From the IMG/VR virus record IMGVR_UViG_3300035701_004184, positions 1-45,603 of that record: a stretch of DNA of 45,603 bases. The stretch is one strand, 5' to 3'. Under the pieces are notes generated by a model. It had not been told where the DNA came from. It made no database searches and saw only the letters and a list, made by a program, of their open reading frames with translations. This DNA comes from a virus. The translations under genes and the position numbers were made by a program. This document shows, piece after piece, positions 2,709 to 40,404 of the stretch; the stretch's first letter is position 1; every line of letters starts with the position of its first letter.

Positions 2709-2818
2709 GGGAACGTACTTAGTAAAGATATATATAACCTAGTAGTAGGGGGTGTGGATAACTCATAATTTCGTGCCTATTTAGCCATGTGTATAACCTG
2801 TGGATAACTCGTGGATAA
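2709..2818 (-). promoter_or_regulatory. Regulatory element copy 1 (promoter-like, origin-like)
   Basis: This roughly 110-bp element is shared with 40301-40397. Blocks common to both copies on the plus strand are ACTTAGT, AAGATATATA, TAGTAGTAG, TTCGTGCCTAT and AACCTGTGGATAACT. Read leftward it holds TTATCC, an 18-19 nt spacer and an AT-rich TTATATATAT, which could serve as a weak promoter for the small-gene operon starting at 2693. It also contains four DnaA-box-like sites and the AT-rich tract, the composition expected of a DnaA-dependent origin. Promoter and origin functions are both inferred. Confidence 0.6.
2753..2818 (-). other. Cluster of DnaA boxes, candidate replication origin
   Basis: On the minus strand the nonamers are TTATCCACA at 2753-2761 (exact), TTATACACA at 2788-2796 (exact to TTATNCACA), TTATCCACA at 2799-2807 (exact) and TTATCCACG at 2810-2818 (one mismatch). 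All have the same orientation. The last three start exactly 11 bp apart, about one helical turn. An AT-rich stretch lies next to the cluster at 2725-2737. No replication protein gene is recognisable in the genome. Confidence 0.55.
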
Positions 2819-3578: not shown

Positions 3579-4550
3579 TTAATGTTTCTCATATATCTTG
3601 GCCCTTGTCTCCATAAGGGCCACTCCATCCTCAATTGTCATCGCATTAAACTCCCTTTTCTCCGCGCCGAAAACGATTGCCAGCCCGCAACCTTGTCCCC
3701 TCTTTGCCATCCCGTGTATCCGGGCATATCTATCCCGAAGTTTGGCTGTTCCGGGCCGGGTATAAAGCACTTCTCGGTCATTTACCATCTCTTTCATATA
3801 ACCCCAAATATGTTCGTGGCCGACAGTAAAAATATCTGCATCCGGATACTCGTTTTCCCTGAGTCTTACACAGCAGTTGTGAATGTTGATTTTGCTCTTC
3901 CCCCAATAATTATGACTTAATGCCCAATCGTACTTCTGGCTTCCGACTTCCAAATGTAACAATCCCATGCCGGGAAACACCGGGCCTTCTACCTGCCTTG
4001 CAAAAATCTGTTCTGGCTTCTGTCCCGCATCAAACATCCACTCCGTGTGATTGCCTAAAACAGTTGCTCCCCACTTCTTACCTAATTCCCTCATCATGTC
4101 CTGAACGGTAAACGCTTGCATATAAGGGGGTAGAAGTTGTTCGTACTGTAGACCACCCCAGATTCCGTTATCGAAAGTGTCCCCATCGTCTACCAAAAAA
4201 GTGTTTGGAGTTGAAAGTACAAGGCCCATTAACCGAATAACCAGTTTATGGTCTGTCGTATAAGAGCCGATATGCCCATCTGAAAACACTAATCCCATCG
4301 CATAAGGTATCTCTGGGTGGTCAATCGGGACTCTGTAAGTTCCTTCCTCTTGCACGATCTCTGCTGCCTCGATCACCGCCACCGTGTCAATCATCCGTTC
4401 CAAGTTCCGCCGCCAATTAACCTCGTACGTTTTTTTATCCGGGAACACGATTGTCTGCTCTGGTGGTGTTTTCTCCGTTCGTATCGCATACACAACCCGT
4501 TCAGTTCCACGATCATCAGTTATGAGTCTTCCGAGTTCCTTCATATACAA
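3579..4550 (-). CDS. Calcineurin-like metallophosphoesterase
   Basis: 323 residues (an alternative ATG at 4544 removes two). The five metal-binding blocks of the family are present in order: SDGHIGS (90-96, the DxH block), GDTFDN (123-128, GDxxD-like), GNHTE (166-170, GNH[D/E]), an SHNYWG His (213) and GHEHIWG (244-250, GHxH). The active site should bind two metal ions and hydrolyse phosphomono- or diesters. The first about 80 residues have no recognised motif. Phage relatives include lambda-type protein phosphatases and SbcD-like or cyclic-nucleotide phosphodiesterases; I cannot choose among them. It sits in the lysis-region operon, which is an odd place. Anti-defence cleavage of nucleotide signals is possible but speculative. 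Confidence 0.85.
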   Translation of the reverse strand: MYMKELGRLITDDRGTERVVYAIRTEKTPPEQTIVFPDKKTYEVNWRRNLERMIDTVAVIEAAEIVQEEGTYRVPIDHPEIPYAMGLVFSDGHIGSYTTDHKLVIRLMGLVLSTPNTFLVDDGDTFDNGIWGGLQYEQLLPPYMQAFTVQDMMRELGKKWGATVLGNHTEWMFDAGQKPEQIFARQVEGPVFPGMGLLHLEVGSQKYDWALSHNYWGKSKINIHNCCVRLRENEYPDADIFTVGHEHIWGYMKEMVNDREVLYTRPGTAKLRDRYARIHGMAKRGQGCGLAIVFGAEKREFNAMTIEDGVALMETRAKIYEKH

Positions 4551-16569: not shown

Positions 16570-19500
16570 CTAGATATACTTACCAATATAGTTTAAGTCT
16601 GGGGACTCAAGTTTAATTCTCCCTCCAGTTTCTTGCTGAAGGTACATCCCATCTTCCATTAATAGACATTCGAGATACTTCGGGCCATAAACATTATTTA
16701 CATCTGAATACTTACTCCCGTAGGCAACATTATCCTCCAAGACAATATGTCCACCAGTTTCCAATAAAAGATACATCCCATTCTGCATGAGTAAAGATGG
16801 TTGGTATTCGGGAGCAAAAACATTTCCGGTGGTCGTATATTTGTTTCCAAAGGCAATCGCATCTTCTAGGGGTATGCGCCCTCCAGTTTCCAAGAGAAGG
16901 TAGAATAGATCCTCCATCATTAAACAAGGAACATATTTAGGCCCATATATCTCAGGCGAGGGCGAAGGAGAGGGTGAGGGACTCAGCGAGGCGCTCGGAG
17001 AAAGTGAAGCACTTCCTGAGGCTGAGGCGCTTTTGCTAACCGAAGCCGACGGGGACAAACTCGCTGATGGGGAAAGAGACGCGGATGCGCTTGCCGAGGG
17101 ACTCAATGAGAAAGACCCTGAAGCCGATGGGCTGAGAGACCAACTCCCACTGGCTGACGGACTAAGAGAGAATGATCCGGAGGTAGAGGGTGAGAGGGAG
17201 AACGATCCAGAGGCACTTGGGGATAAACTGTAACTGGCCGACGCCGAGGGACTTAAACTATACGACCCACTCGCAGACGGGGAAAGACTCTCTGAACCTG
17301 AAGCACTTGGAGACAAACTTACTGACCCCGAGGCGCTGGGACTCAAAGACCCAGACGCCGAAGCCGAGGGAGAAAGGCTGGCACTAGGACTTAAACTGAA
17401 ACTGCCACTTGCCGAGGGAGACAAAGAGGCGCTGGCACTGGCCGAGGGGGACAGACTGGCCGAAGGAGACAGGCTCTCGCTTCCACTCGCTGAGGGTGAA
17501 AGAGAAGCCGAACCGCTTTCTGAAGGCGATAAACTTGCGCTGGGACTTAATGAAGCGCTTTCGGATGCGGAAGGACTTAAAGAGAAAGACCCGGATGCCG
17601 AAGGTGAAAGGCTGGCCGAGGGTGACAATGAAAAACTCCCTGAGGCCGATGGACTCAGACTGGCACTTCCAGAGGTGCTTGGACTAAGACTAGCGGAGGG
17701 CGAGAGTGAGAACGAACCCGACGCAGATGGAGACAGACTTGCTGAACCACTAGTGCTCGGTGAAAGAGATTCTGACGGACTTAAACTGAACGACCCGCTA
17801 GCACTAGGTGAGAGGGAAAACGAGCCCGAAGCACTGGGACTTAATGAGTATGACCCACTAGCACTAGGAGAGAGTGAAAATGATCCTGACGCACTTGGAC
17901 TTAAAGACTTTGACGCACTGGTGGAGGGGGAGAGGCTGGCTGAAGGTGACAACGAGAAACTACCACTAGCAGATGGGGAGAGAGAAAAACTTCCGGACGC
18001 ACTTGGAGAAAGGCTAGCCGAGGGACTTAGGCTAAATGATCCACTAGCGGAGGGTGAAAGTGATTTACTTGCCGAGGCGCTGGGACTCAAGGAAGTGGAT
18101 GGGCTAAGTGAAAAAGACCCCGAGGCAGATGGACTGAGACTAAACGACCCACTAGCACTAGGTGAAAGCGAGAACGATCCAGAGGCACTTGGGGATAACG
18201 ACGCTGAAGGGGATAAACTAAAGCTACCCGAGGCGCTAGGACTAAGAGAGAACGACCCACTGGCTGAGGGAGAGAAACTTCCCGACTGGCTGGCGCTTGG
18301 CGAAAGTGAGAACGACCCTGACGCACTCGGACTTAAACTAGCACTAGGACTCAATGAAAATGAGCCGGATGCGCTGGGACTCAAAGAGAAAGACCCACTA
18401 GCCGAAGGTGAAGGTGAGGCCGACGGGCTTAAACTAAACGATCCAGAGGCACTCGGACTTAACGAGAACGATCCTGAAGCGGAAGGAGATAGTGAAGCAG
18501 ACGGACTAAGACTGAAACTCCCACTCGCGCTAGGCGACAAAGAGAAGCTACCAGACGCCGAGGGTGAGAGACTGAGGCTTCCACTTGCGCTTGGACTCAG
18601 AGACTTCGACCCCGAAGCTGACGGGCTCAATGAAGCCGAAGGAGAAAGAGAGAAACTACCAGATGCTGAGGGCGAGAGGCTGAAAGAGCCCGACGCTGAA
18701 GGGGATAAACTAGCCGAGGGGCTTAGGCTGAAACTTCCTGATGCCGATGGAGATAAAGAGAAACTTCCCGACGCGGACGGACTAAGGCTGGCTGAGGGAG
18801 AGAGGGAAAAGCTGCCACTGGCTGATGGACTTAAACTGTATGATCCAGAAACACTTGGGGAAAGAGAGTATGACCCCGAAGCCGAGGGGCTTAACGAGAA
18901 TGACCCACTAGCGCTTGGTGAAAGTGAACCTGAGGGAGAAAGACTATAACTTCCAGAGGCACTAGGACTAAGTGAAAACGACCCAGAAACCGAAGGAGAT
19001 AAAGAGAAACTTCCTGACGCTGACGGCGAAAGTGAAAAACTTCCACTGGCGCTAGGAGATAAAGAGGCTGACGGCGAAAGTGAAAAACTTCCACTAGCGC
19101 TAGGAGATAAAGAGGCTGACGGCGAAAGTGAAAAACTTCCACTAGCGGACGGTGAGAGACTAAAACTTCCACTTGCACTTGGGGATAAAGAGAAACTTCC
19201 TGATGCCGAGGGCGAAAGAGAAAATGACCCGCTGGCACTGGGAGATAAAGAAGCAGAGGGAGAAAGTGAGAAACTTCCACTAGCTGAAGGGCTTAAACTG
19301 AAGCTGCCACTAGCTGAGGGACTCAGAGAACCCGACGGACTCAAACTGAAGCTACCACTTGCACTTGGCGAGAGGGAGAATGATCCAGAGGCACTTGGCG
19401 ACTTCGACCCTGACGGAGAAATACTAGAGAAGTTAAATAAATAATAAACCTCATTTGCCGTTAGGGCGGTGCCATTTATCAACCAAACATCATCCAATGA

Positions 19501-21906
19501 GCCAGTAAAGAATAAACCGTTGTCGCCAGTGTTGTTGGCACATCCAATCCGAACAAAATTAGTGGCTTGATACCCAGGAGCCCCACTCCAAGGCCAAGAG
19601 TTATCAAAAACACCGTCAATGTAGATTAAGATATTAACCCCATCCCAGATGCCAGCAATAAAGTGCCAGTTGCCATCAGTAACTGTCGCGTTGCTTGCCT
19701 GAAACTCATAATCTATTCCCTCAACAACACCCGTATTACAATAAATCCCAAAACAGACCTTATTTGAAGAATTGAGGTAAAGTCTCCACCCAGCCACCTT
19801 GCTCGATAACTGGCAGTAACTTTGAAATAAGAACTGGCTAGCACCCGTGGTTGAGGTTTTAAGCCACAGTCCTACAGTAAAACTTCCCGTAGGCTGAAAG
19901 TCGGCATGATCTGTTATTGAGTAGGCATCGTTGCCATCGAGAACAACCCCTCCACCAAATCTCCCAACCCCTTCTGCTGGGTCACTTATATCTGTTAAGG
20001 TATGTGCATCTTTAGAGTCGGTTGTTAAGGCACCAGTCGAGAATCGGTAGTATGCCACCGTGGTCGCACCACCGAACTCGGTGGTGTCGAAAAACTCCGG
20101 AGCTAACCATCCAGCACTAGGACTAGGACTAGGTGAACCCGAGGCGCTAGGACTTAATGAAGCGCTACCACTCGCCGATCCACTCGCCGACGGAGACAGT
20201 GAAGCAGAGGGAGACTGGGAAGCAGAATAAAGACCGTAAATATCAGCAATATCGTTTGACCCAAGACACGTTCCGTTCAAGAGAAAGACGTCATCTATCG
20301 ATCCTGTAAAGAATAGGGCATCAGTGCCAGTGTTGTTGGCACATCCAATACGGACATAGTTCGTTGCCTGATAAACTGGGGCATTGGCCCAGGCAGTCGG
20401 GCCAACGACTAACACCCCATCGACATAAAGACATAAACTCGCCCCATCCCAAGTACCAGCAATAAAGTGCCACACACCATCAGCCAGACTCACCGCACCA
20501 GTTATAAGTTTGTAGTCGGTATCAATTATGGTTCCCGTGTTCTTGTAACTGCCGAAGTTAATTTTATTGGCAGTATTCAAATAAAACCGGATTCCTGCCA
20601 TCTTACTACTACCCTGGGCGTAACTCTCGAAGATATATTGGTTGACCCCAGTAGTCGAAGTCTTAATCCACATTCCTACGGTGAAATTACCGGTAGGTTG
20701 AAAGTCGGCATGGTTAGTTGCCGAGTAAGCATCATTCCCATCCAACGCCACCGCACCATTAAACTCACCCGCAGCGTCTTCGGCAGGATCGCTTATGTCT
20801 GTCAAGGTATGCGCACCCGCACTCGTGTCTGTGGTTAATGCACCCGCCGAAAATCTGTAATATGCAGCGGGAGGATAAGTACCGATTAGTTCGTTGAACT
20901 CGCGCGCAGTCGGGGGATCCCCCGAACTTCCGCTGGCAGATTCACTAACTGATTCCGAAAAAGAACCACTGGCTGAAGTGCTAGCCGACACTGAGGTACT
21001 TTCTGAGGCCGATTGGGATAAACTAAAACTTCCCGAAGCGCTAGGGCTAAGACTGAAACTCCCACTCGCGCTAGGCGAGAGGCTAAAACTCCCCGACGCA
21101 CTAGGACTCAGCGAAGCTGACGGCGAGAGAGAAAAACTTCCGCTGGCACTCAGAGATTTCGAGGCTGAGGGAGAAAGAGAAGCCGAGTATGGTGGATAAT
21201 CACTTGTATAAGTAAGAAGGATTTGTCCATCAGCACCCAAACTATAACCAGCAGTAGTGGCATCACCCCCACCTCCACCACCACCGGGGATACCACCATT
21301 ACCACCAAGTTGACCATCAGTATCTCCACTTCCTGCACCGCCGCCACCACCTAAGTCATTTGCCGCACCATTTTGTCCAGCAGAAGTTCCACCAGTACCA
21401 CCCGAACCATGATCCCCACCACCGCCATCACCATGCGCACTAGCACCTGCGGCGACACCATCCAAACCAGTTCCATCTTTACCAGCTGCTCCTCCTCCTC
21501 CACCACCCACATCTGATGTCGTATGAGCATTTTCACCTGCACCACCACTTGTACCAGCAGGAGTACAACTCGCACCGACACCACCAGCGGCACCAGTGGC
21601 GGTACTTGTACCCGTACCACCTATTGCTACTACCGTAGTTCCGCCAAAAGTAGAACTTGGGGCTACACCCGCAGTATCTCTTGCACCACCCGCACCAACA
21701 ACAATGGCATAGTTATTCCCAGGAGTAACAGCAACAGAAGCATTAACAGTATAGGCTCCACCGCCACCTCCTCCTCCACCACTTGCACTAGCATATCCTC
21801 CTCCACCACCAGCACCCCACGCCTCTACCTTGATTGAATTTACATCAGGTGGACACTGCCAACTATATGTTCTTGCTATGTTATATTTTTTTGTTTGGGT
21901 TGCCAT
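16570..21906 (-). CDS. Giant Ser-rich repeat tail protein with Gly-rich and two LamG-like domains
   Basis: 1778 residues. The N-terminus (about 1-235) is a Gly-rich fibre domain ([23 protein letters not shown]). Then come short Ser repeats and two LamG/concanavalin-like domains (about 338-560 and 599-825, each with [19 protein letters not shown] and WHFIAG.WDG). A run of roughly 80 decapeptide-like units ([10 protein letters not shown] and variants) covers about 827-1650. The C-terminal 125 residues hold three copies of a motif ending [11 protein letters not shown] or similar. The repeat tract is mucin-like: Ser, Pro, Ala, Gly and an aromatic in each unit. LamG domains bind glycans or proteins. 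It is probably a long virion fibre, and the Ser tract is a plausible glycosylation target of the neighbouring island. SD AGAGGT abuts the ATG. Confidence 0.8.
16956..19424 (-). repeat. Ser-Pro-Ala-Gly coding repeat tract
   Basis: About 80 degenerate 30-bp units encoding [10 protein letters not shown]-like decapeptides. Most units differ at synonymous positions, so the DNA repeats are much less alike than the protein repeats. The same unit occurs in the head-fibre-like gene at 34010-34920. Confidence 0.85.
19021..19140. repeat. 48-bp near-perfect tandem repeat, 2.5 copies
   Basis: The unit starts at 19021, 19069 and 19117, with one visible mismatch (19048 vs 19096). It encodes 16 residues within the Ser-rich tract. 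Nearly identical copies stand out from the diverged units around them and mark a recent slippage or unequal-exchange event. Confidence 0.8.
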
Positions 21907-21965: not shown

Positions 21966-23591
21966 TTAGTACAGTTTCTTCACCAAATCTTCCGTTTTAC
22001 CCCACCCCGGAATCTCCATATCCGATTCCAACCACCCCGTACAAGTAGACTTATCTCTGAAGTCATCCTGGCTCCACTTATCGGGAGTCAGGTTAGTTCC
22101 GTGTCTAACGTCCACAATCGGGAACTCCGACTTCCACCATTCAGACCTACCATCTCTCGTGCCTGGCTCAAAACTCACCGTCTTATACGAAAATCCGTTT
22201 TTTTCAATAAACTCCATGATTTTTTTGTATTCCACTAACAGTAAGTCTCTATGGGCACACAGCCCCGAGAGCTGATCGGCGTCAAAGTGTACCGCATGAC
22301 CATCCGACCTTAACTTCCAGAAATTCCTATTGTAATAAAACTTATCCTTTGTCGGTGGTATAAAGTCAAAATGGGATGGGTGATACATAACATCATGCTC
22401 ACAAAAGAATATCCACTCCGCCTCACTATTTTCTATCGCTGCGTAAATTTGCTTAGCCATAGCGAAGTATCCCCGTTTAAGATGGGGAAAGTGAATGTTC
22501 TTTTTACCGAAAGCAATCTTCTTGAGAGAGGAACTGACAATGGGGATATTCTTTTCTTGACTTATCTTCGCTAAGTTCTCTTTCACTGCTTCAGCGAGTT
22601 TCGGTTCGAGTTGATTATCGGTATAAAAGATCATCCCCTTCGCTGCGCCTTTCTCACTTTCTTTAAGTTTTACTAAATCCGCATCCGTCCAACCTTTTAC
22701 TGGCCAAAATTTCTCTAACAACCAAGAAAGAGGGTGGATGGTTTTCGGCCACTTACTGTTGAAAAACAACTCGCGCGCATGCGCCTTGGCTTTAGATACC
22801 TGACTCCCCGATAAATGATATGGAAATCCAAAGTCGCCACCTTTCGTGCGAAAGAGGTGCGCATACCAAGTCTCGTGATTCACGAGTACGCGCCCACCCG
22901 AGAGCCAGGTCTTACAAGCAACCTCTATTCCTTGACTTCCCCATGACCCAAACTCCTCGCTACACAAATCCAACTCGAAATACTTCTCACGGGTACACAT
23001 AAAGCACGACCCCTGTAAGGACATCGTTTCTGAGATAGGCCCACTCCACCCTGGCCTTCTAGTCCAGTCTCCGAAATATTGAAAATGAGGTTCGGCATCG
23101 AAGCAAAACGACACAGCCTTGGGATTTCGCTTAGCAATCCATACAACTTCCTTTACAGTAGGCTTCTGACACTCTGTACACGGCCCAGAAAGCCCCTGAT
23201 AACGTCGGTGGCCATCTGGACACACCCAATCGAAGACGTGCAGGTTTCTCATTAAGGGCGCCATCGTTACATTGTCCCCAGTCACTTTGAACGCTTCGAT
23301 CATCTTCACATCGAAACCTTTGTCAAAAGCACAGTGGGCGTCTATCTTCATTACATATTTAGATCGAGAAAGTCTAGCTGCTTCATTTGTGGCCGCGCGC
23401 TGTCCCAATGCTTGACTATGCCTAATTATCACCAGTCGAGAGTCTTCGGGAAGCGGGGAAATAGGAATCGTATAACCATCAAGGGCAACAATAATCTCGG
23501 TGTCCCCCTCAATATTAGATAGGATGTCTTCAATCGTCCGACCCAACCACTCTTCATTACAAGATGGGATAAGAATAGAAAGTATTGACAT
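21966..23591 (-). CDS. Bifunctional glycosyltransferase (GT2/GT27-like plus second GT-like domain)
   Basis: 541 residues, apparently a fusion. Residues 1 to about 310 form a GT-A glycosyltransferase: SILIPSCNEE start, DAHCAFDKGFD (DxH, D84/H86), LQGSCFMCTREKYFEL, and GSWGSQGIEVACKTWLSGG with a following AHLFR. These blocks resemble polypeptide GalNAc-transferases (GT27) and related GT2 enzymes. From about 320 on (GMIFYTDN...) the protein is clearly homologous to the 246-aa gene at 25930, sharing FFCE.D..YHPSHFDF, a conserved Leu-Ser-Gly Cys block and an EPG tract. An internal CPDG...C..C cluster (about 125-145) may bind zinc. Donor sugar and acceptor are unknown. It starts inside the divergent promoter region shared with the RHH gene. 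Confidence 0.8.
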   Translation of the reverse strand: MSILSILIPSCNEEWLGRTIEDILSNIEGDTEIIVALDGYTIPISPLPEDSRLVIIRHSQALGQRAATNEAARLSRSKYVMKIDAHCAFDKGFDVKMIEAFKVTGDNVTMAPLMRNLHVFDWVCPDGHRRYQGLSGPCTECQKPTVKEVVWIAKRNPKAVSFCFDAEPHFQYFGDWTRRPGWSGPISETMSLQGSCFMCTREKYFELDLCSEEFGSWGSQGIEVACKTWLSGGRVLVNHETWYAHLFRTKGGDFGFPYHLSGSQVSKAKAHARELFFNSKWPKTIHPLSWLLEKFWPVKGWTDADLVKLKESEKGAAKGMIFYTDNQLEPKLAEAVKENLAKISQEKNIPIVSSSLKKIAFGKKNIHFPHLKRGYFAMAKQIYAAIENSEAEWIFFCEHDVMYHPSHFDFIPPTKDKFYYNRNFWKLRSDGHAVHFDADQLSGLCAHRDLLLVEYKKIMEFIEKNGFSYKTVSFEPGTRDGRSEWWKSEFPIVDVRHGTNLTPDKWSQDDFRDKSTCTGWLESDMEIPGWGKTEDLVKKLY

Positions 23592-23613
23592 ATACTTACA
23601 ATGTATGTATAAT
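23585..23613 (+). promoter_or_regulatory. Consensus sigma70 promoter of the RHH/Tad2-like cassette
   Basis: TTGACA at 23585-23590, exactly 17 bp, then TATAAT at 23608-23613, a perfect match to consensus. The RHH ATG lies at 23624, so the leader would be only a few bases. The -10 overlaps the palindrome at 23607-23618. Confidence 0.85.
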
Positions 23614-23618
23614 TATAC
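23607..23618. promoter_or_regulatory. Palindromic operator candidate (RHH gene)
   Basis: A perfect 12-bp palindrome, GTATAATTATAC, containing the -10 and placed 5 nt before the RHH start codon. The same palindrome lies at 41967-41978, 4 nt before the TerS start. A bound regulator would block the promoter; RHH proteins commonly bind short palindromes. Confidence 0.55.
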
Positions 23619-23623
23619 CATAT

Positions 23624-23791
23624 ATGATTCGTTGTAACTTCTATTTAACGATCGAGCAGAAGAAACGTCTCGAAAAACTTTCTCAGGCATCGGTTGCAGA
23701 ACACATCCGCCGAGCCATTGACGAATACTTGAAACGCCACGCACCCACCTACACGACTTCTCCTTCAAAGAAAGGAGGTAGACATGGTTAA
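23624..23791 (+). CDS. Ribbon-helix-helix (Arc/MetJ/CopG-type) regulator
   Basis: 55 residues. RCNFYLTIEQKKRLEKLSQ forms a beta strand plus helix 1, and ASVAEHIRRAIDEYLKR forms helix 2, the classic RHH arrangement. A basic Lys/Gly tail follows. RHH proteins dimerise and use paired strands to bind short palindromic operators; one overlaps its own promoter. No SD precedes the ATG, which is almost at the predicted transcription start (leaderless or nearly so). It overlaps the next gene by 8 nt. This and the next gene are the only plus-strand genes in the genome, inserted within the sugar island. Autoregulation is inferred. Confidence 0.8.
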   Translation: MIRCNFYLTIEQKKRLEKLSQASVAEHIRRAIDEYLKRHAPTYTTSPSKKGGRHG

Positions 23792-24050
23792 ACTTCAACA
23801 GGTTCCTCCAGCACAAAAGTTTGAAAAGGCCCATATTGTCAAAGGTCCCATCCCGATGATGACCTTTCCCGAAGCGATAAAACAAGTTATCGAAGGCAAA
23901 GTGATTACCAAACTTGAATGGGGAGATGAAAACATCTATGGAGCGCTTTTGGCCGGTAGACTGAAAATTCACAAAGACGACAACAAGTTCTACGATTGGA
24001 TTCTTAACGACGGCGACTTGACGGGAACAGATTTTATAGTAATCTCTTGA
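23784..24050 (+). CDS. Tad2-like (DUF2829-type) candidate anti-Thoeris protein
   Basis: 88 residues from the ATG at 23784, which has a full SD (AGGAGGT, 5 nt away). The core from about residue 25 reads MTFPEAIKQVIEGKVITKLE, then W, and ends with YDWILNDGDLTGTDFIVI. This follows the DUF2829/Tad2 pattern: F.EA...L..GK...R..W, then a Trp and a final TDW/F.V strand. Tad2 proteins bind and sequester the gcADPR signal of Thoeris defence. Here the match is by eye and the usual central region is shorter, so family membership is moderate. Location in a two-gene plus-strand cassette behind an RHH regulator fits an early anti-defence module. Confidence 0.5.
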   Translation: MVKLQQVPPAQKFEKAHIVKGPIPMMTFPEAIKQVIEGKVITKLEWGDENIYGALLAGRLKIHKDDNKFYDWILNDGDLTGTDFIVIS

Positions 24051-24097
24051 GTAGAAGTTGCAACGGGAGAAAGCGCGACAAAACAGTTGATTACTCT

Positions 24098-24910
24098 TTA
24101 ACATAGTGCCTTATAAAGTTCGGCTATCTTTGAGATATGGTATTCTTCGGATTTTGCAATGCACTTCTGGGCGTACTCGTCATATAGCCACGGTGCAGAC
24201 AGGAGTTCGTCTAATCTGGCAAGGAACTCCTCAAAGTTATTGACTGGGATATAACAATCCCCCATCTCATCAAAAGCCTTTTCATGGAAGGCGATAGTCG
24301 GGATTCCGAAAGAGGAGGCATTGACTAATTTCAAGGGATTCCTCATCTTCATCTTATAAGGTCTCCAGACAATCTGAACGTCTACCTTCATAAAAGCATC
24401 TACAACATCTTGTCGTTTGGCAAACTTAGAATAAGCGTAAAGTGTCATTCCCCGCTTTGCTAACTCATCGTTTAAGGCTGGAGGAAAGAATTGAAGATCG
24501 AAGGTGCATCCAATAGCCCCGAGAGTTTTAATTCCCGTTCTCGTCCTTCTAATTCGCTCATAATTGCAGTTGTGCTGGGGGATAAAGACAACTCTATTTG
24601 GTAGATCTCTTTTTAGGGAGTCGTAGTCGAACTTCGAGAGAGCGATCACCGGCACCTCAGGATGTTTCAAAAGTAAAGAGGTTAGATCCCATGAGTCAAC
24701 AATGTCTAAATACGGTTTCCCTTCAAACTTAAAATCCTCAAAGTTCTTAACGTGGGGCTTCACATAAATACAGACATCATTCTCATATCCCTCAGTCGGG
24801 TTTAACTTCGCCCCAAGATACTCGGCGATCTGATTGCCTCGGATTAAGGAAGAAACTCGCATTAGATGGCGTTTCCCTTTGAACATTCTTTTCGCGAAAA
24901 TAGAGATCAT
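24098..24910 (-). CDS. GT-B type glycosyltransferase (GT4-like)
   Basis: 270 residues from the ATG at 24910, which makes the ATGA overlap typical of this operon with the upstream methyltransferase stop (a longer start at 24919 is possible). The C-terminal half shows the GT-B donor-binding region: LGAIGCTFDLQFFPPALND, MRNPLKLVNASSFGIPTIA, and a FEEFLARLDELLSAPWLYDE helix. The N-terminal half is short for GT4 and has no obvious membrane segment. It would transfer a sugar from an NDP-sugar. It is the last gene of the sugar island's main leftward run before the plus-strand cassette. Confidence 0.7.
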   Translation of the reverse strand: MISIFAKRMFKGKRHLMRVSSLIRGNQIAEYLGAKLNPTEGYENDVCIYVKPHVKNFEDFKFEGKPYLDIVDSWDLTSLLLKHPEVPVIALSKFDYDSLKRDLPNRVVFIPQHNCNYERIRRTRTGIKTLGAIGCTFDLQFFPPALNDELAKRGMTLYAYSKFAKRQDVVDAFMKVDVQIVWRPYKMKMRNPLKLVNASSFGIPTIAFHEKAFDEMGDCYIPVNNFEEFLARLDELLSAPWLYDEYAQKCIAKSEEYHISKIAELYKALC

Positions 24911-25446
24911 ATGTTCCATTTCTTGTGGAAATACCAGGAAACCGACTCTTTCGGATTAGTTGTTGTTTCCAAATTTAAGACATGACACTTAATGTAGGTG
25001 CTTACAGCCGTCACGATTCCCTTGTGGGTCGTATCGTCTGAATGGACAACGTAGTCATGTCCCGAAACAATCCCCCCTTTTCTGACTTTCTTGGTCCACT
25101 CGATAAGGTCCCGCATGACATCATCAAAAGAATGTCCGGCATCAATGTAAACGAAATCCAAAGATCCATCGGTGAAGTCCTTAACTGCGTCCAAACTAAA
25201 CTTTTTAATTAGCGTAGCATCATAAGAAGCCAGTCGTTCCTGAACTCGTTCATACTTCCTTCGGCGGTGGTTCATACAAACGCCGGTCTTTATATCCCAA
25301 CAGTCTATGCAGTAAAGTTTCACTCCAGGAATCTCCCTACAAAGAACCTCCGAATAGTCTCCTTCGTCCACGCCAATTTCGGCCCCGGTCTTATAACCGA
25401 GTTCTTTGAAATACTTTGCTAATTCTGTACGGTTACTACAAGACAT
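24907..25446 (-). CDS. SAM-dependent methyltransferase (Methyltransf_24-like), paralog 1
   Basis: 179 residues from the ATG at 25446 (a TTG at 25458 would add four). Motif I is GAEIGVDEGDYSEVL. It is followed by LYCIDCWD, KKFSLDAVKDF, SLDFVYIDAGHSFDDVMRDL and GGIVSGHDY, a class I methyltransferase layout. Three other genes in this island (26719, 27360, 28013) share these blocks and are clearly paralogs. The likely substrate is a sugar hydroxyl on a glycan, judged only from context. Confidence 0.75.
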   Translation of the reverse strand: MSCSNRTELAKYFKELGYKTGAEIGVDEGDYSEVLCREIPGVKLYCIDCWDIKTGVCMNHRRRKYERVQERLASYDATLIKKFSLDAVKDFTDGSLDFVYIDAGHSFDDVMRDLIEWTKKVRKGGIVSGHDYVVHSDDTTHKGIVTAVSTYIKCHVLNLETTTNPKESVSWYFHKKWNI

Positions 25447-25933
25447 ATTTTTTAACAATTTCGGATACTTTCATCCTTTGGGCCGTCACGTTCATCTCAC
25501 AGTTCCAAGTAGGAATAAGATTGACCCAGTGCAAAAACTCGTCCTTCTCGACCACATACCGATAGGTGTCTCTAATCTCTATCGGCTCGCCTTCCTTCAT
25601 CTGGTTACGAAGTGTGTTGATAAGGGTGTGGGGATTAGTCCCCCAAGTGATATTTCCCAATCTCATAATCGCGAAGTGAGGAAGTTCTTTAACCATTGCC
25701 TCCATCTCCAATTTATGTCGGGTATATCGAGTATCGGAATAGAACACCGCCAGAGTTCCAAAGTAAACGAGTTGCCTATCCCGGCACTCTGACACCACAC
25801 TTGTAAGAAGGTCTTTCTCTCTTTGGTACTCCGACTCTCTGATCTCCTGGCTGTTACTGACTCCTGACGCGAAATACAACCGATCTGGACGATCAGTCAA
25901 AACACTGGCTATGTCGCCGTGTCCGCTTATCAT
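25436..25933 (-). CDS. Short SDR-type NAD-dependent epimerase/dehydratase
   Basis: 165 residues, about half the normal length for extended SDRs. It keeps the catalytic YxxxK (YTRHK), a preceding LVYFGTLAVF strand and the FAIMRLGNITWG region. The N-terminal GxxGxxG nucleotide-binding segment is missing. It could be a truncated enzyme, a family of short SDRs typical of phage sugar islands, or a subunit. It lies 4 nt overlapped (ATGA) with the gene upstream. Sugar epimerase/dehydratase function is an inference from family and context. Confidence 0.6.
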   Translation of the reverse strand: MISGHGDIASVLTDRPDRLYFASGVSNSQEIRESEYQREKDLLTSVVSECRDRQLVYFGTLAVFYSDTRYTRHKLEMEAMVKELPHFAIMRLGNITWGTNPHTLINTLRNQMKEGEPIEIRDTYRYVVEKDEFLHWVNLIPTWNCEMNVTAQRMKVSEIVKKYVL

Positions 25934-26670
25934 AATTCGGAAATAATATCAGAGATGTTTCCCCAACCCGGAACTTCTTTGGCCTCTGTCCAACCTTTTA
26001 TTCCCCGTTGGTCATGATAGTCTTGGGGATGGCGTTTACCTTTGGTCATATTGTTATCGTGTCTAAGATCGAGGTTCGGCCACTCAGAACTCCAGGAAAG
26101 CGGAGGATATTCATCTACTCCTCTGGGTTTCATGTGTCCCCCTGGTTCAAACCCCATGTGTCTAGAATATCCATCATTCTCGACAACCCCTCCCTTAGCA
26201 AGAACGTCTCGTTGGTTTTGTAAGATCTTCTCTATTCTCCTTCGATAGTGACCAAGTAGTAAATCTCGGTATCCACACATCCCACTTAACTGCATATTAT
26301 TATCAGTGCGAATGGCGATTCCCTCTGCCATCCAAATCTTCCAGACATTTACATTGTAGTAATAAGCCTCATGGGTCGGAGGAACGAAGTCGAAGTGACT
26401 AGGATGGTAGAGAATATCGGCTTCGCAGAAAAAGATAATGTCGGACTCGCTCTGCTCTAGGGCCGCCAGGATCTGTCGGAACTGACTGAAGGGACTTCGC
26501 TTATAATCGAAAAGAAGATTCACATCCCCGAAGTCCATCCTCCACCGCAAGGCGGAAGTGACAATAGGAAACTTCCTCTTTTTAGCGATGGACTTTATGA
26601 TGCCCGTGACCCTCTCAGTTATTTTCGGTGAGGTTTCGTTATCGGTATAGAAAATGATTCCTTTGGTCAT
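25930..26670 (-). CDS. Glycosyltransferase-like protein homologous to C-terminal domain of the 541-aa fusion
   Basis: 246 residues. It begins GIIFYTDNETSPKI and contains IIFFCEADILYHPSHFDF, LSGMCGYRDLLLGHYR and MGFEPGG, matching the second half of the fused GT at 21966 along its whole length. The acidic FFCEAD block could be a DxD-like metal site of a GT-A fold. The family is common in sugar islands of environmental phages and bacteria, as far as I recall, but has no assigned reaction. Presence of a stand-alone copy and a fused copy suggests duplication followed by fusion. Confidence 0.6.
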   Translation of the reverse strand: MTKGIIFYTDNETSPKITERVTGIIKSIAKKRKFPIVTSALRWRMDFGDVNLLFDYKRSPFSQFRQILAALEQSESDIIFFCEADILYHPSHFDFVPPTHEAYYYNVNVWKIWMAEGIAIRTDNNMQLSGMCGYRDLLLGHYRRRIEKILQNQRDVLAKGGVVENDGYSRHMGFEPGGHMKPRGVDEYPPLSWSSEWPNLDLRHDNNMTKGKRHPQDYHDQRGIKGWTEAKEVPGWGNISDIISEL

Positions 26671-26718
26671 GTTTTAACCCAACCGTGGATTCCCCAAGTA
26701 TCTCCACTTTTCCGCATA

Positions 26719-27363
26719 TTATTTTTTCACCCAGAACCATGAACGGTATTTGTCTCGTATGAGACCATTTCCACAGACTGACAATCCCGGAACAAAGTAG
26801 GGGTGCATCCGATAACATCGCGCATAGACCTCTAGGACTCGTTTAACGTGGTTAAACTTCCTATAAGAGAAATAGGCATAATCATGACCTGCCAGAATCC
26901 CATCCACTTTAACTTTCTTCTTCCAAGTATCTAGGTCGTTGGTTATATTCACGAAGTCATGGTTGGCGTCTATGTAAACAAAGTCGAAATAGTTATCGGG
27001 GAAGTCCTTGGCCGCCTCAAGCGAGGTTTTCCTGACAATCGTACAGTTATACGGAGCGAGTCGCTCTTTGGTCTTTTCGTAACACCCGTCAAAGTACGCC
27101 TGTTGCTCATTCACGCCCGAGAGTCCTGAGGGATAAACGTAAGAGGCCCAAGGATCGATACTATACAAATGTAACTTAGAGTTGGCCTTGCATAGAACCT
27201 CGGAGTAATCTCCCCTATCCACTCCGATCTCCGCACCCGTATTCAGGTTTAACTCACCAAACAACTTCGCCAGATCGTCACGTCCCATATTGGGGATCTC
27301 AATGAAGAACTGCCTCCTAACAGTTATATTATACTTTTTTAAGACGTATTCGTAATTCGTCAC
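26719..27363 (-). CDS. SAM-dependent methyltransferase, paralog 2
   Basis: 214 residues. Same blocks as the other copies: GAEIGVDRGDYSEVL, LYSIDPW, RKTSLEAAKDFP, FDFVYIDANHDFVN and GILAGHDYAYF, ending SWFWVKK. The N-terminal extension (MTNYEYVLKKYNI) is shared with the next two paralogs but not with the first. It overlaps the next upstream gene by 4 nt (ATGA). Glycan O-methylation is the likely but unproven role. Confidence 0.75.
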   Translation of the reverse strand: MTNYEYVLKKYNITVRRQFFIEIPNMGRDDLAKLFGELNLNTGAEIGVDRGDYSEVLCKANSKLHLYSIDPWASYVYPSGLSGVNEQQAYFDGCYEKTKERLAPYNCTIVRKTSLEAAKDFPDNYFDFVYIDANHDFVNITNDLDTWKKKVKVDGILAGHDYAYFSYRKFNHVKRVLEVYARCYRMHPYFVPGLSVCGNGLIRDKYRSWFWVKK

Positions 27364-28016
27364 GTTTTTACCCAGAACCAGTTTCCATAAAGGTCACGCC
27401 TGGGTTTCTCGTGCCTTCGCGGTAGGACAAAGAAAGGAATCATCTTGTAAGAAGTCGCATAAGCCATTAGTGCCTCTCTAACGTGGATCATCTTGTAAGA
27501 CTTGAATCTCATGTAATCATGGCCAGCCACAATTCCTCCAACTCGCACCTTATCTTTCCAGTAATGGAGATCAAGGGTAAAGTTTACGAAGTCGTGTCCC
27601 GCATCTAGGTAAACAAAGTCCAGCGATCCATCTTTAAAATCTTTCACCGCTTCCATTGAAACCTTGCGGATAATCGTGCAGTTGTAGGGAGATAGTTTCG
27701 CAGTCGCTGTTTTGTATGCTTCGTCGTAATATGGCTGACTCTCCGAACCTGGAAGGGGATGTGACTGAGCTAGAAATCCTATAGGGTAAGACTCGATCTT
27801 CCAAGAGTCTATACTGTAGAGATGGAGTTTCGGGTTAGCATCACATAGAATCTTGGAATAGTCCCCATGCAAGACTCCAACCTCGGCCCCCACCGTGAAT
27901 CCCAACTCGGCAAATAAAGCCGCTAGATCGGGACTTCCCATGTTCGGAATCTCCACCATATATTTATGCCCGATTTTAAGGTTGTACTTTTTAACGATGT
28001 AGTCAAAAGTATTCAT
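27360..28016 (-). CDS. SAM-dependent methyltransferase, paralog 3
   Basis: 218 residues from the ATG at 28016, chosen because it makes an ATGA overlap with the upstream paralog's stop. Motifs are GAEVGVLHGDYSKIL, LYSIDSW, SMEAVKDFKDGSLDFVYLDA and GGIVAGHDYMRF, ending NWFWVKT. A 15-residue insert rich in Pro/Ser (SHPLPGSESQPYYD) follows the second motif. It is close in sequence to paralog 2. Confidence 0.75.
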   Translation of the reverse strand: MNTFDYIVKKYNLKIGHKYMVEIPNMGSPDLAALFAELGFTVGAEVGVLHGDYSKILCDANPKLHLYSIDSWKIESYPIGFLAQSHPLPGSESQPYYDEAYKTATAKLSPYNCTIIRKVSMEAVKDFKDGSLDFVYLDAGHDFVNFTLDLHYWKDKVRVGGIVAGHDYMRFKSYKMIHVREALMAYATSYKMIPFFVLPRRHEKPRRDLYGNWFWVKT

Positions 28017-28627
28017 TCTTTCACAAAAAACCAACTCGTTTGGTAGTTCCGATTAGGTAGAAATAACATCTTGATACCATGATTCTTGACGTAAGTATCT
28101 ATGGCCCGTCTTGAACCTAAGGTCATAAACCAATATTTGTAATGGCCGTAGTCGTGTCCACTGACTATTCCACCAGGCTTAACAATCTTCGCCCAGGCTT
28201 CTATATCCTCCAACACATGACTATAGTCGTGGTTAGCGTCTATATAGACGAAATCTAAAGTTTCGGGAGCGAAGTGTTTAACCGCCTCCATACTGGTCTC
28301 CCTGAGGATCTTGCACTTATAAGGAGCAAGGCGTTTACCCGTCTCTTGACAACACTCATCCAGAAACTTTTGGTTGTTGGCATAGAACTCAGGGACTTCG
28401 CTCTCATAGATTATCCAAGGATCGATGCAATATAATTTGAGACCAGGATTCTGTAGACATAAGGTTTCCGAGAACTCCCCCTTGTAGACCCCAACCTCTG
28501 CTCCGACCTTAAAGTTTAACTCCCTAAACATCCCCGCCATGTCATACCTTTTGAATACAAGTCTAACCGGCGACTTTGTATCAGGGCCGATGTCAAACTT
28601 CTTATTAACAAACTCCAGTGTGTTCAT
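28013..28627 (-). CDS. SAM-dependent methyltransferase, paralog 4
   Basis: 204 residues from the ATG at 28627 (ATGA overlap with the next gene). Motifs are GAEVGVYKGEFSETL, LYCIDPWI, RETSMEAVKHF, LDFVYIDANHDYSHVLEDI and GGIVSGHDYGHY, ending TSWFFVKE. Three such genes in direct succession, each with 4-nt overlap, imply tandem duplication followed by divergence, perhaps for methylation of different sugar positions. Confidence 0.75.
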   Translation of the reverse strand: MNTLEFVNKKFDIGPDTKSPVRLVFKRYDMAGMFRELNFKVGAEVGVYKGEFSETLCLQNPGLKLYCIDPWIIYESEVPEFYANNQKFLDECCQETGKRLAPYKCKILRETSMEAVKHFAPETLDFVYIDANHDYSHVLEDIEAWAKIVKPGGIVSGHDYGHYKYWFMTLGSRRAIDTYVKNHGIKMLFLPNRNYQTSWFFVKE

Positions 28628-29121
28628 TTCCAAAAGTCCTCCAAACTAACTAAATTACTCAAGACGGCAGCCTTCCTATCATCCTTATTCCACACCGTCT
28701 TATACTTGAATAAAGGATAGATTTCCGAATAATGGTAGATCTTATCTTTCTCGGGGTTGGCATCATGGATAATGATGTATTTGGCCAACTCCGTTAACCG
28801 CCTGATTTCTATGGCGCGACTGGAGTCGGGAGTCTGATCGATTAGTACCACATCCCAGGGTTTGTCTATCTTCGCCTTGGCATAATCATCAATAATGATA
28901 ATCTCGTGGTTAGGACACGAATAACCGTATTTAATGAAAAAGTTGGCCCAAGATGGATAGTTCTCATAAGATACCAACTTCCGATCTGAGAGAAGGCATT
29001 GATAGTGAAGGTATGGAGTGCTAAAAATTCCCATCCCCAATTCCAACACGTCTCCCGTAGTTTTCTCCATCGCTTTTATCAGACAGGGCAGGTGGGTTCC
29101 GTAGTGGCCCGAGACATTCAT
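28624..29121 (-). CDS. Methyltransferase-like protein
   Basis: 165 residues from the ATG at 29121, again chosen for the ATGA overlap. GDVLELGMGIFSTPYLHY is a class I motif I-like segment, and WDVVLIDQTPDSSRAIEI and KYIIIHDANPE give the following strands with acidic residues. It is not closely related to the four paralogs. Substrate unknown; context suggests sugar or glycan methylation. Confidence 0.6.
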   Translation of the reverse strand: MNVSGHYGTHLPCLIKAMEKTTGDVLELGMGIFSTPYLHYQCLLSDRKLVSYENYPSWANFFIKYGYSCPNHEIIIIDDYAKAKIDKPWDVVLIDQTPDSSRAIEIRRLTELAKYIIIHDANPEKDKIYHYSEIYPLFKYKTVWNKDDRKAAVLSNLVSLEDFWK

Positions 29122-29891
29122 TTTTGTCGCCATTTCTCATTCCTTTCTAAAATCTTCTTTGTTATTTCTGGGTCGTAACTAACACTCTCCGCCCAAGATG
29201 TCCAGCCGTAGACATCTTTGGGCAGACACTTTGAATCAAAACCCTTCTTTTCTCCGTGATCCGCCGTCCACCAAAGGTTGAATCTAAAATCATCACCATA
29301 AACCACGTCTCTTATATTGTAATAGTCTATCCCCGCCTTTTTACAGGCATCTATCAACTCCTGAACCTCGGCAATCTTCCAGGCAATCGCCCTATTTTCA
29401 GACAGTTTAATCACCTCAGCCTCAAGTGCAGTTACTTGTCTGACTGATACGTTGGCATTGTAGACATTTCTGAAGTAAAGTTCGAGCAATTTATGCCTAT
29501 CTTCTGAAGCCCCCCCAATGACCAGGAAGGGTCGCGTCTTTGGATCAAGCATTGGATGCGCCGGGGACTCTCCAAGGTATTCTGGCTGTACCACAATGCG
29601 TCTAGCATACTTCTTTGAGAGTAGATCGGTAGTTCCGGGGTTTACGGTGGAACGAATGACCAAAAGTGGACATTCGCACCAAGCAACCACCCCCTCAACT
29701 ACCGAGGTGTCGAGTTTCCCCTTATCAATACAAGGTGTCGGCACACAAATGAAGGCGGTCTCTCTTTTATTCACCTCTTCCTTTTCCCCAAGACCCAAGG
29801 CTGGATCATAAATATAGGCTTCGGGAAATAATTGTTGCATGGATTTTCCCACCCAACCGTAACCAATTATTGCCACTTTAGGTTTTGCCAC
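29118..29891 (-). CDS. UDP-glucose/GDP-mannose dehydrogenase-like protein (short)
   Basis: 257 residues, against about 390-450 for the family. Present: dinucleotide-binding GYGWVG (10-15), FICVPTP (48-54), RSTVNPGTT (80-88), PEYLGESPA (103-111), EAEVIKLSEN and the catalytic-Cys block SKCLPKD (C222). The C-terminal UDP-binding domain is missing. Family enzymes oxidise NDP-sugar C6 alcohols to uronic acids. Retaining the catalytic Cys suggests an active enzyme on a smaller or different substrate. Confidence 0.7.
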   Translation of the reverse strand: MAKPKVAIIGYGWVGKSMQQLFPEAYIYDPALGLGEKEEVNKRETAFICVPTPCIDKGKLDTSVVEGVVAWCECPLLVIRSTVNPGTTDLLSKKYARRIVVQPEYLGESPAHPMLDPKTRPFLVIGGASEDRHKLLELYFRNVYNANVSVRQVTALEAEVIKLSENRAIAWKIAEVQELIDACKKAGIDYYNIRDVVYGDDFRFNLWWTADHGEKKGFDSKCLPKDVYGWTSWAESVSYDPEITKKILERNEKWRQK

Positions 29892-30745
29892 CGTTTTCTC
29901 CTTTCGTGATATACCTTGAAATAAGGGTCATTCTGCTCGCCCTTCCAGTAACCTTCATTAAGTTGGATAAACCGGCTTTCTTTGACTAGGCTGGAAAATA
30001 CATTAGAGGCCCGTTCATGGTAGACCCCAGAATAACCCGTAACAGCCGCCCAACCTTTCTCATCTATAACTCTTTTGGCCTCAATACTACACCAAATATC
30101 ATCGCACCTCTCCAATTCTCCCCGTATCTGCGGACACATAAAGATGTAGGGGATCATCTTTCGTTTGAAGGCGGTATTCATGTAGGACAGTGGCGCGAGG
30201 ACCCCTTTAGGAATCGCCATTTTATAGAAGTTCATTGGATGCGATCCTATAACTAATTGAGTGGGAGCATCAAAGTCGGGCGTTACCTCCCATACGCCGT
30301 GTGATAATACTACTTCCGCCTCACTCCGCACCCCGTAGGGAAAACCCCTTGTATAAGCATCCCCTATCGGCATCCAGCTAATCGGAACCCTCATGTCGAG
30401 TGCGTTTAGGTGATCTTGGATGGAGTCCCCTATAGGGATAAGGTCGTCATCTAGTGAAACGATAGTCTCTATCTCTGGCAAGTTCAAACCCACATAGGCT
30501 ATCCCTAAGCTCCTCACTCCCGCGTAACGATTACAGACTAAGTCACTATTCTTTCCAAGAATGTCTTTTATGTTTATTTTCTCCTTGTTGTTAATCTGTA
30601 GAGTCGTTTTGTTGGGATTTTCCTCATCCCACACCGTTAGAACGGTTACGTCGTGTTTCTCAAATAAGTCTTTCCACCTGGGGAGGAAAACATCATTATA
30701 TAAATCTTTTCGATAAGACGGTAAAACGACAGCGATCTTAGGCAT
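29867..30745 (-). CDS. Reversibly glycosylated polypeptide / UDP-arabinopyranose mutase-like protein (GT75-like)
   Basis: 292 residues from the ATG at 30745 (a GTG at 30751 is possible). The match to plant RGP/UAM proteins is distinctive: SLDDDLIP (DDD at 99-101), RGFPYGVRSE, SHGVWEVTPDFDAPTQLV, IPKGVLAPLSYMNTAFKRKM, a CDDIW block and YHERASN.F. R140 lines up with the Arg that is glycosylated in plant proteins, by my eye alignment. Those proteins interconvert UDP-Ara pyranose and furanose. A related bacterial or phage activity could make a furanose donor for the island. Reaction not proven. Confidence 0.7.
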   Translation of the reverse strand: MPKIAVVLPSYRKDLYNDVFLPRWKDLFEKHDVTVLTVWDEENPNKTTLQINNKEKINIKDILGKNSDLVCNRYAGVRSLGIAYVGLNLPEIETIVSLDDDLIPIGDSIQDHLNALDMRVPISWMPIGDAYTRGFPYGVRSEAEVVLSHGVWEVTPDFDAPTQLVIGSHPMNFYKMAIPKGVLAPLSYMNTAFKRKMIPYIFMCPQIRGELERCDDIWCSIEAKRVIDEKGWAAVTGYSGVYHERASNVFSSLVKESRFIQLNEGYWKGEQNDPYFKVYHERRKRWQNLKWQ

Positions 30746-31616
30746 TTTCACTTTGCCACCTTCCTAACCTTTCCTTCCAATCATCCGGCCAGGTTGGCAT
30801 CGGATTAAACTTGTCAACAAACCAATAAAAATCGTGTTTTCTCTCGGCCCACTTGTCGCCTAGCCAATATCTAGCCGCTAGATCGTAAGATTTATTCTCT
30901 TGCGCCTGATCCATATGATAACCCCGTTTGTTCCCTTGCTGGTGTAAATGCGCATAAAAAGTCTTTTTGTTAACCATTACCTTTCCTCCACCCAACCAGT
31001 TCTTGAGTGCCAACCAAATCGGTTCCTGCGCGTGACCGTATGGATCGATATTCGGAAATCCCCCTAGTTCAAAGTAATGGTCTTTGGAGATGAACCATCC
31101 TGATCCATGAATCTGGGGAGTTTCATCAATCAAGATGTCTAGTTTCTCCGCCGTCCACTCGGGCCAATGACCACCCGCCTTGAAACGCAAACCCCTCGGG
31201 TCTGTGAAGGGACAGCAAATATAAAAATAATCGTAGAACTCCTCCTGACCATTTTTCATTTGTATTTGCCAGTCAGGAGTTATGATCTTAAAGCGAGGCA
31301 TTACTATCCAGTCATCCTGCATGTCTGCTTGTAAAATCTCGTCAAAACCCTTGCCAAAACTACAATGAGCATCGGACTTGTAAATATACTTACCTGTCGC
31401 CATCGCACAAAGAGCATTGAGATTGGTCTTTATCCCTACAACATCGGGAAATCTTATCGACTTAACCGGAAAGTCGAAGTCTTGGTACGGCGGGCCGTCA
31501 AAACCAACCAAGACCTCGAACTCTCCAGTCGCGTTCTCGTAGATGCTTTTAATTGTCCGGCTAAGGTTCTCGTAACTTTCAGCCCTGCTAGGAATAATTA
31601 TGCTTACTTTGGCCAT
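30738..31616 (-). CDS. GT2 glycosyltransferase with GT27-like DxH and lectin-proximal blocks
   Basis: 292 residues. It begins SIIIPSRAESYENLSRTIKS. The DxH motif is in KSDAHCSFGKGFDE (D82, H84). Then come IHGSGWFISKDHYFELGGF and HAQEPIWLALKNWLGGGK with a following YAHLHQ. These correspond in order to the DxH, GGLF.I...YF..LG and WGGEN.E...W.CGG blocks of polypeptide GalNAc-transferases. The C-terminal YWFVDKFNPMPTWPDDW is shared with the other two GT2 proteins of the island. Donor and acceptor are not determined. Confidence 0.75.
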   Translation of the reverse strand: MAKVSIIIPSRAESYENLSRTIKSIYENATGEFEVLVGFDGPPYQDFDFPVKSIRFPDVVGIKTNLNALCAMATGKYIYKSDAHCSFGKGFDEILQADMQDDWIVMPRFKIITPDWQIQMKNGQEEFYDYFYICCPFTDPRGLRFKAGGHWPEWTAEKLDILIDETPQIHGSGWFISKDHYFELGGFPNIDPYGHAQEPIWLALKNWLGGGKVMVNKKTFYAHLHQQGNKRGYHMDQAQENKSYDLAARYWLGDKWAERKHDFYWFVDKFNPMPTWPDDWKERLGRWQSENA

Positions 31617-32155
31617 GATTTATGCCTCACAATGATTAAAATATTATCCCGTCTGCGTACGTGCGCGAGTTTTGGTACTTCCACGTTATACTCCGATAAC
31701 TGCGGTACTATTGTCTGCCAATATCTAGCGTCCTCGATAATATAGATCGTATGCCTTTGCAAAAGAGGCATGAGAGTCTTACAGGAGAAAATCTGGTCGG
31801 CCATGACATGAGAGCCATCGTCTATCACTAAATCTAGATCGGGGCCAGTATGTACAATTACATTCTCCAGATTGCTCTCTATTCTTTGGTCACAAGTAAA
31901 GACCCTTATTCTTTGTTGGTCATTCATTAACTTAACCCTTTCGGGATCGATCTCAGCCCCATATATCATGGCGTGAGGAAAGAAATCTCTCCACATAAAG
32001 AGACTTGCCCCCTCCGCCGTTCCTATCTCTAAGACTTTTTTAATTATCGTTCTCCTAGGGTTTAAGAGGTCGTAATAATAAGGCGTATAGGAATGTTTTA
32101 TCTGCGGACACTTATCCGAGTTATACTTGAGTGCTAAATCACAAAGTTCGGTCAT
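31604..32155 (-). CDS. Class I SAM methyltransferase, sugar O-methyltransferase-like
   Basis: 183 residues. KYNSDKCPQIKHSYTPYYYD, VLEIGTAEGASLFMWRDFFP, IYGAEIDPERVK and LDLVIDDGSHVMADQ form a motif set I associate with CmcI/TylF-type and other sugar or antibiotic methyltransferases. It is distinct from the four-paralog set. The ATG overlaps the GHMP kinase stop (ATGA). A role in methylating a sugar nucleotide or a finished glycan is likely from context. Confidence 0.7.
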   Translation of the reverse strand: MTELCDLALKYNSDKCPQIKHSYTPYYYDLLNPRRTIIKKVLEIGTAEGASLFMWRDFFPHAMIYGAEIDPERVKLMNDQQRIRVFTCDQRIESNLENVIVHTGPDLDLVIDDGSHVMADQIFSCKTLMPLLQRHTIYIIEDARYWQTIVPQLSEYNVEVPKLAHVRRRDNILIIVRHKSWPK

Positions 32156-33961: not shown

Positions 33962-33970
33962 GATATACTC

Positions 33971-34000
33971 ATAGTACAAAGCCAAACTACTTTAGGTCAA
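33971..34000 (-). promoter_or_regulatory. TAGTT-type promoter of the sugar island
   Basis: -35 TTGACC, TAGTT at spacer positions 6-10 of 18, -10 TACTAT; 9 nt then lead to the GTG start. This gives the sugar genes the same promoter class as the structural genes. Confidence 0.65.
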
Positions 34001-40270: not shown

Positions 40271-40300
40271 GAGCACTATATATTAACTTACTTCTTACTG

Positions 40301-40397
40301 GGTACGTTACTTAGTGAAAAGATATATAAAATAGTAGTAGTACGGTGGACAAGTCATATTTTCGTGCCTATCTGGCTAGGTACTAACCTGTGGATAA
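40301..40397 (-). promoter_or_regulatory. Regulatory element copy 2, upstream of structural genes
   Basis: Diverged copy of the element at 2709-2818. It keeps one exact DnaA box (TTATCCACA at 40389-40397); the other boxes are degenerate. Read leftward it has TTGTCC, 18 nt, then TATATA, a possible promoter. It lies between TerL and the TAGTT-type promoter of the portal gene. Confidence 0.6.
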
Positions 40398-40404
40398 CTA
40401 GCGA

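Follow-up and report, generated by a model that had tools for sequence, protein, structure and literature searches.

Several DnaA-assisted plasmid and phage-plasmid origins, among them P1 oriR and those of F and pSC101, place DnaA boxes beside an AT-rich region and depend on iterons and a Rep protein of the plasmid. Reliance on host replication is common among phages, and the known cases mostly supply their own initiator. Host proteins only are used by the oriC minichromosomes of bacteria and mycoplasmas, which carry a chromosome-type origin and were made in the laboratory from excised pieces of the host chromosome.

The opening module of the bacterial chromosome, the basal unwinding system (BUS), is indispensable in B. 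subtilis, and in vitro DnaA unwinds it (PMC6669920). The published BUS rule comprises a DnaA box with up to two mismatches, a spacer of 0–16 bp, and at least three DnaA-trios, 3'-GAT-5' being the commonest trio adjoining the box (PMC8287927). The parts of this module are thus known; in the literature searched, coverage of which was incomplete, we found neither a description of DnaA-trios in a phage origin nor duplicate use of the module by an initiator-less phage. The locus described here belongs to a virus contig of 45,603 bases, analyzed in full and referred to as the window. Its sequence suggests, with a probability that we put at roughly 0.77, that positions 2718–2818 (minus strand) form a phage origin driven by DnaA and organized as a BUS of the bacterial chromosome type.

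Genome completeness and gene content

The last 127 bases of the contig match bases 49–175 exactly. An exact overlap of this kind is the trace left by de Bruijn assembly of circular DNA, and a complete circle of 45,428 bp is therefore very probable; one gene crosses the circle junction. The first 48 bases align to the other end just before the overlap with nine mismatches, indicating a strain variant in the sample.

Genes for packaging, capsid, tail, and lysis are recognized, as is an island of sugar-transfer and methyltransferase genes. Others encode HNH nucleases, small DNA-binding proteins, a metallophosphoesterase, and a NinG-like protein. The preliminary description had reported no recognizable replication gene or integrase, and this holds: the HMM scans it proposed for hidden replication proteins, run with Pfam, PHROGs, and NCBIfam, revealed no polymerase, primase, replicative helicase, initiator, or integrase, and PDB sequence searches found no replication protein among six small proteins. 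As the circle is complete, this absence does not reflect a sequence gap, and an incomplete contig as its cause is ruled out by the 127-bp exact overlap. Two genes near the element deserve mention.

2327–2578, minus: 83-aa helix-turn-helix (HTH) protein with a resolvase/sigma region 4-like HTH (HMM)
3579–4550, minus: metallophosphoesterase, matching PHROG 'DNA repair exonuclease' at 5.8e-26 (HMM); not a replisome part

The 83-aa HTH gene is the first DNA-binding gene beside the element, and its product is, by sequence, a candidate regulator and no known initiator. Near-consensus sigma-70 promoters lie at 2572–2544 and 2330–2302 (minus strand), with expected starts a few bases from ATG codons, which would leave the transcripts of the small genes almost leaderless. 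Rfam and tRNA searches gave no match. GC skew and strand composition, nearly all genes running in one direction, carry no origin signal; the skew, put forward earlier as a check, proved uninformative. Genome matches of the terminase are mixed, several of them in MAGs of ~1 Mb, and indicate no host.

Ser-rich repeats make up most of two proteins (16570–21906 and 34005–35147). The island between them (21966–33985) encodes glycosyltransferases, methyltransferases, a GHMP kinase, and a sugar-nucleotide dehydrogenase, and the phage perhaps glycosylates its own fibers. The only likely plus-strand genes are frames of 68 and 88 aa (23585–24050), the first of which we take to resemble a ribbon-helix-helix protein and the second to be DUF2829/Tad2-like; their sole PHROGs match is weak, function-unknown, and to the 88-aa frame.

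The element at 2.7 kb

Read on the minus strand, the intergenic region 2694–2840 contains TTATCCACG-AG-TTATCCACA-GG-TTATACACA-(26 bp)-TTATCCACA-CCCC-CTACTACTA-GG-TTATATATATC. The features of the element and its immediate surroundings are as follows.

2823–2861, minus: 12-bp perfect inverted repeat, GACGGGGTTATC/GATAACCCCGTC, with a 15-nt loop, adjoining the box array
2810–2818, minus: DnaA box TTATCCACG, one mismatch, distal array
2799–2807, minus: DnaA box TTATCCACA, distal array, its counterpart kept in the second copy
2788–2796, minus: DnaA box TTATACACA, distal array
2753–2761, minus: trio-proximal DnaA box TTATCCACA, no mismatches (strict BUS motif scan)
2749–2752, minus: GC-rich spacer CCCC, 4 bp, from box to trios (read from the sequence)
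2740–2748, minus: three DnaA-trios, CTACTACTA on the box strand and 3'-GATGATGAT-5' opposite (motif as in PMC8287927)
2718–2737, minus: predicted AT-rich unwinding element, stability rank 3 among distinct 20-bp sites

The distal boxes at 2810, 2799, and 2788 are spaced by exactly 11 bp, and the trio-proximal box follows 26 bp beyond. From this last box onward the minus strand reads TTATCCACA-CCCC-CTACTACTA-GGTTATATATATC, which is a box, a GC-rich spacer, three perfect DnaA-trios, and low-stability DNA; only two distinct 20-bp sites genome-wide are less stable than 2718–2737. Three exact boxes and one near-match on one strand, with 11-bp spacing and an AT-rich neighbor, had already been noticed in the preliminary description. 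The box scan bears out the boxes and their spacing, and the AT-rich stretch is now located at 2718–2737; the trios (2740–2748), the inverted repeat (2823–2861), and a second copy of the element (40286–40399) are additions to that account.

Exact TTATNCACA sites number five in the genome, none of them on the plus strand; three of the five fall within this cluster. None of 600 order-2 Markov genomes contained three exact same-strand boxes inside 66 bp. The DnaA-box cluster at 2753–2818 is real and not a product of chance.

The inverted repeat has an RNA fold of −20.6 kcal/mol (z −3.9), without a U tract, and possibly terminates the gene that has its end at 2841. It includes GGTTATC half-boxes.

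A diverged second copy

A second copy of the element sits at 40.3 kb, in a 170-bp gap between the terminase and portal genes; the gap measures ~40 bp in the relatives G007 and G024. Its features are listed below.

40286–40399, minus: diverged second element copy, 79% identity over 116 columns (92/116), E 5e-20
40389–40397, minus: intact DnaA box TTATCCACA (box scan)
40344–40352, minus: degenerate trio-proximal box TTGTCCACC, two mismatches, 3-nt spacer (BUS scan)
40332–40340, minus: DnaA-trios CTACTACTA, fully conserved relative to the first copy
40317–40336, minus: low-stability element, rank 5, four distinct genome sites being less stable

Comparison of the two copies shows no change in one box or in any of the nine trio bases, and decay of two array boxes. 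Downstream of each copy is a gene on the minus strand.

The order, orientation, and distance of box, spacer, and trios fit the published BUS rules. Mismatches of the trio-proximal box to TTATCCACA, of which two are allowed, number zero at 2753–2761 and two in the second copy. The spacer (0–16 bp, usually GC-rich) is CCCC, 4 bp, in the first copy and GTA, 3 bp, in the second. Three trios, the minimum, with the central A on the bound strand, are present as 3'-GATGATGAT-5' in both copies. Same-strand boxes lie upstream (three at 11-bp spacing in the first copy, one in the second), and easily melted DNA is found past the trios, these sites ranking third and fifth among the least stable 20-bp sites of the circle. 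With strict trios, the BUS rule finds two matches in this genome, one per copy (at 2.7 kb and at 40344); one of 300 order-3 Markov genomes had at least one match. The element at 40286–40399 may be a second origin of the same kind, probably weaker or decaying.

Occurrence in bacterial chromosomes and other viruses

We looked for a strict motif, TTATNCACA-N2-8-CTACTACTA, across 528 bacterial genomes from two phyla, with the reversed pattern as control. It gave three matches and the control none. Each of the three is located in the interval from dnaA to dnaN (genes named from flanking open frames), in the same orientation. That the strict motif occurs in these bacterial genomes only at dnaA-dnaN backs the reading of the phage element as an origin for host DnaA.

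In IMG/VR, the bare box and trio motif is present in 32 contigs, against 46 for a trio-reversed control. As it is no commoner than its control, the bare motif is mostly due to chance, and an enrichment of box and trio alone in viruses was rejected. Further exact boxes within 120 bp upstream are found in 8 of the 32 box and trio contigs and in 0 of the 46 controls (Fisher p 0.0004). In 6/8 array-bearing contigs and 3/46 controls, the stability of the 20-mer adjoining the trios is within the lowest 0.1% for the sequence fetched; the adjoining 20-mers of the eight are far less stable (Mann-Whitney p 1e-4), and in G600, G601, G602, G605, and L160 this 20-mer is the single least stable site of the whole contig.

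No dnaA gene was found in the element-bearing IMG/VR contigs checked, which are therefore not fragments of a chromosomal oriC, and genes for capsid, portal, and terminase occur in those scanned. Proteins in common with the window are almost absent from the element-bearing contigs, which among themselves show only sporadic distant matches. The presence of the same architecture in mostly unrelated phages implies that it recurs in several phage lineages. Of 15 contigs with similar elements, two encode DnaB. A more frequent lack of DnaB or PolA in element contigs was unsupported (DnaB 2/7 vs. 2–4/18; PolA 0/7 vs. 2/18).

Conservation of the element in terminase relatives was rejected: no tandem DnaA boxes are present in these genomes, several of which are 36–44 kb long. 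The element is thus no family trait, and the relatives must replicate otherwise. In the non-structural regions of three near-full-length relatives no replication genes are visible; these three carry recombination genes, for example Erf and RusA. Searches of phages, plasmids, and IMG/VR for sequence relatives of the element returned box-array matches only, with no match to the inter-box sequence. In the initiator-encoding microvirus L237 (PQ006958.1, Microviridae), a box array is followed by TTATCCACACACC-TTATTATTATTATTATTAT and AT-rich DNA.

Proposed function and alternatives

In the proposed mechanism, host DnaA would bind the distal array and the single trio-proximal box, and a DnaA filament would then grow 3' to 5' along the strand bearing GATGATGAT and open the adjoining AT-rich element, allowing the host helicase loader, DnaB, primase, and polymerase III to complete replication. 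DnaA binding, unwinding, and origin use at 2718–2818 are what we infer from this arrangement. Recruitment of host DnaA to an origin, as suggested in the preliminary description, gains support from the trios with their 4-nt GC spacer, the extreme low-stability element, the second copy, and the dnaA-dnaN motif. The origin was there called plasmid-like; chromosome-like is the better term, as the layout is that of a bacterial oriC and not of an iteron plasmid. The absence of a consensus sigma-70 promoter from either element copy also counts for an origin. Against it stand the absence of tandem boxes from the terminase relatives, the lack of a GC-skew signal, the degenerate trio-proximal box of the second copy, the failure of the bare IMG/VR motif to exceed its control, and the DnaB genes of two similar contigs.

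Intergenic tandem boxes similar to these are found in lytic phages of the Autographiviridae, Schitoviridae, and Demerecviridae, which encode their own replisomes. Given such trio-less arrays in phages of replisome-encoding groups, a box cluster alone is no proof of an origin, and an array can serve another use, for instance holding DnaA. It is conceivable, albeit unlikely, that the array in the window lowers free DnaA or controls a neighboring gene and plays no part in initiation. The position of both copies upstream of a minus-strand gene would suit such a role, as would the occurrence of 11-bp-spaced DnaA-box triplets in >120 IMG/VR contigs (L083–L202), some of them seemingly microviruses, with strict trios in only two of the ~120 fetched. 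However, while a box cluster is what datA-like titration would call for, trios and low-stability DNA are unexpected in a sink. In-register trios and one of the genome's least stable sites would be superfluous there, yet both copies have them, and the trios are fully conserved between the copies while nearby boxes decayed.

It is considerably less probable that the 116-bp block common to the copies serves the two downstream genes as a duplicated promoter/operator, with the TATATAT run as its −10 region. A minus-strand gene does follow both copies, and the AT-rich 3' half is common to both; however, neither copy contains a sigma-70-like site, although strong ones occur nearby (TTGACA-17-TATACT, 2572–2544). 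The copies also differ in their distance to the start codons, and the upstream box and the trios would be left unexplained.

The window and two terminase relatives contain GC-rich hexamer/dodecamer tandem arrays, 2–4 kb upstream of the terminase small subunit.

Window, 45057–45200: 24 hexamer units
G024, 22473–22581: 18 hexamer units
L012, 7659–7832: ~29 hexamer units

The three arrays differ in sequence, are similar in position, and are possibly packaging sites or alternative origins. The least probable explanation, that the working origin lies elsewhere, for example in the array at 45057–45200, with the DnaA element as an auxiliary, draws on the absence of box clusters from the array-bearing relatives (G024 and L012), but relatives G007 and G015 have no hexamer array, and the array, which could equally be a packaging site, has neither an initiator link nor a known origin signature.

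If the element is a DnaA-driven phage origin, it would be a minimal natural system in which to test what parts of oriC are sufficient for DnaA-driven initiation, and would explain the replication of phages without replication genes. Its layout provides a sequence signature for finding further such origins. The broader idea, that tailed phages of several unrelated lineages independently took up or rebuilt the chromosomal opening module and replicate without an initiator of their own, with two origins in the present case, we regard as an even bet.

Comparison with known systems

The phage element shares with P1 oriR, F, and pSC101 the presence of boxes by AT-rich DNA; in contrast to these, it is accompanied by no Rep-like gene detectable by HMM and by no iteron array at the element. 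For the Rep/iteron origin type at large (P1, pSC101, lambda ori), Pfam, PHROGs, NCBIfam, and PDB sequence searches found no encoded initiator, and the DnaA-box array is the sole repeat at the element, with no iterons besides. Tandem 11-bp-spaced boxes, likewise intergenic, are found in Escherichia phage P483, Proteus phage PM135, and Pseudomonas phage DL64, the groups of which encode their own replisomes; unlike in the window, no strict trio adjoins the array in the stretches of these phages that were examined.

The BUS of bacterial oriC (B. subtilis incC, Helicobacter pylori oriC; PMC6669920, PMC8287927) resembles the phage element in its distal and trio-proximal boxes, short GC-rich spacer, tandem 3'-GAT-5' trios, and AT-rich DNA beyond, and the three bacterial dnaA-dnaN loci have the same part order and orientation. 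In contrast to the bacterial BUS, its proposed phage counterpart lies on a genome without dnaA or any replisome gene, has a single box at the trios, and is present twice on a 45-kb circle. The origin type proposed is the same as that of the oriC minichromosomes, but its carrier here is a natural virus.
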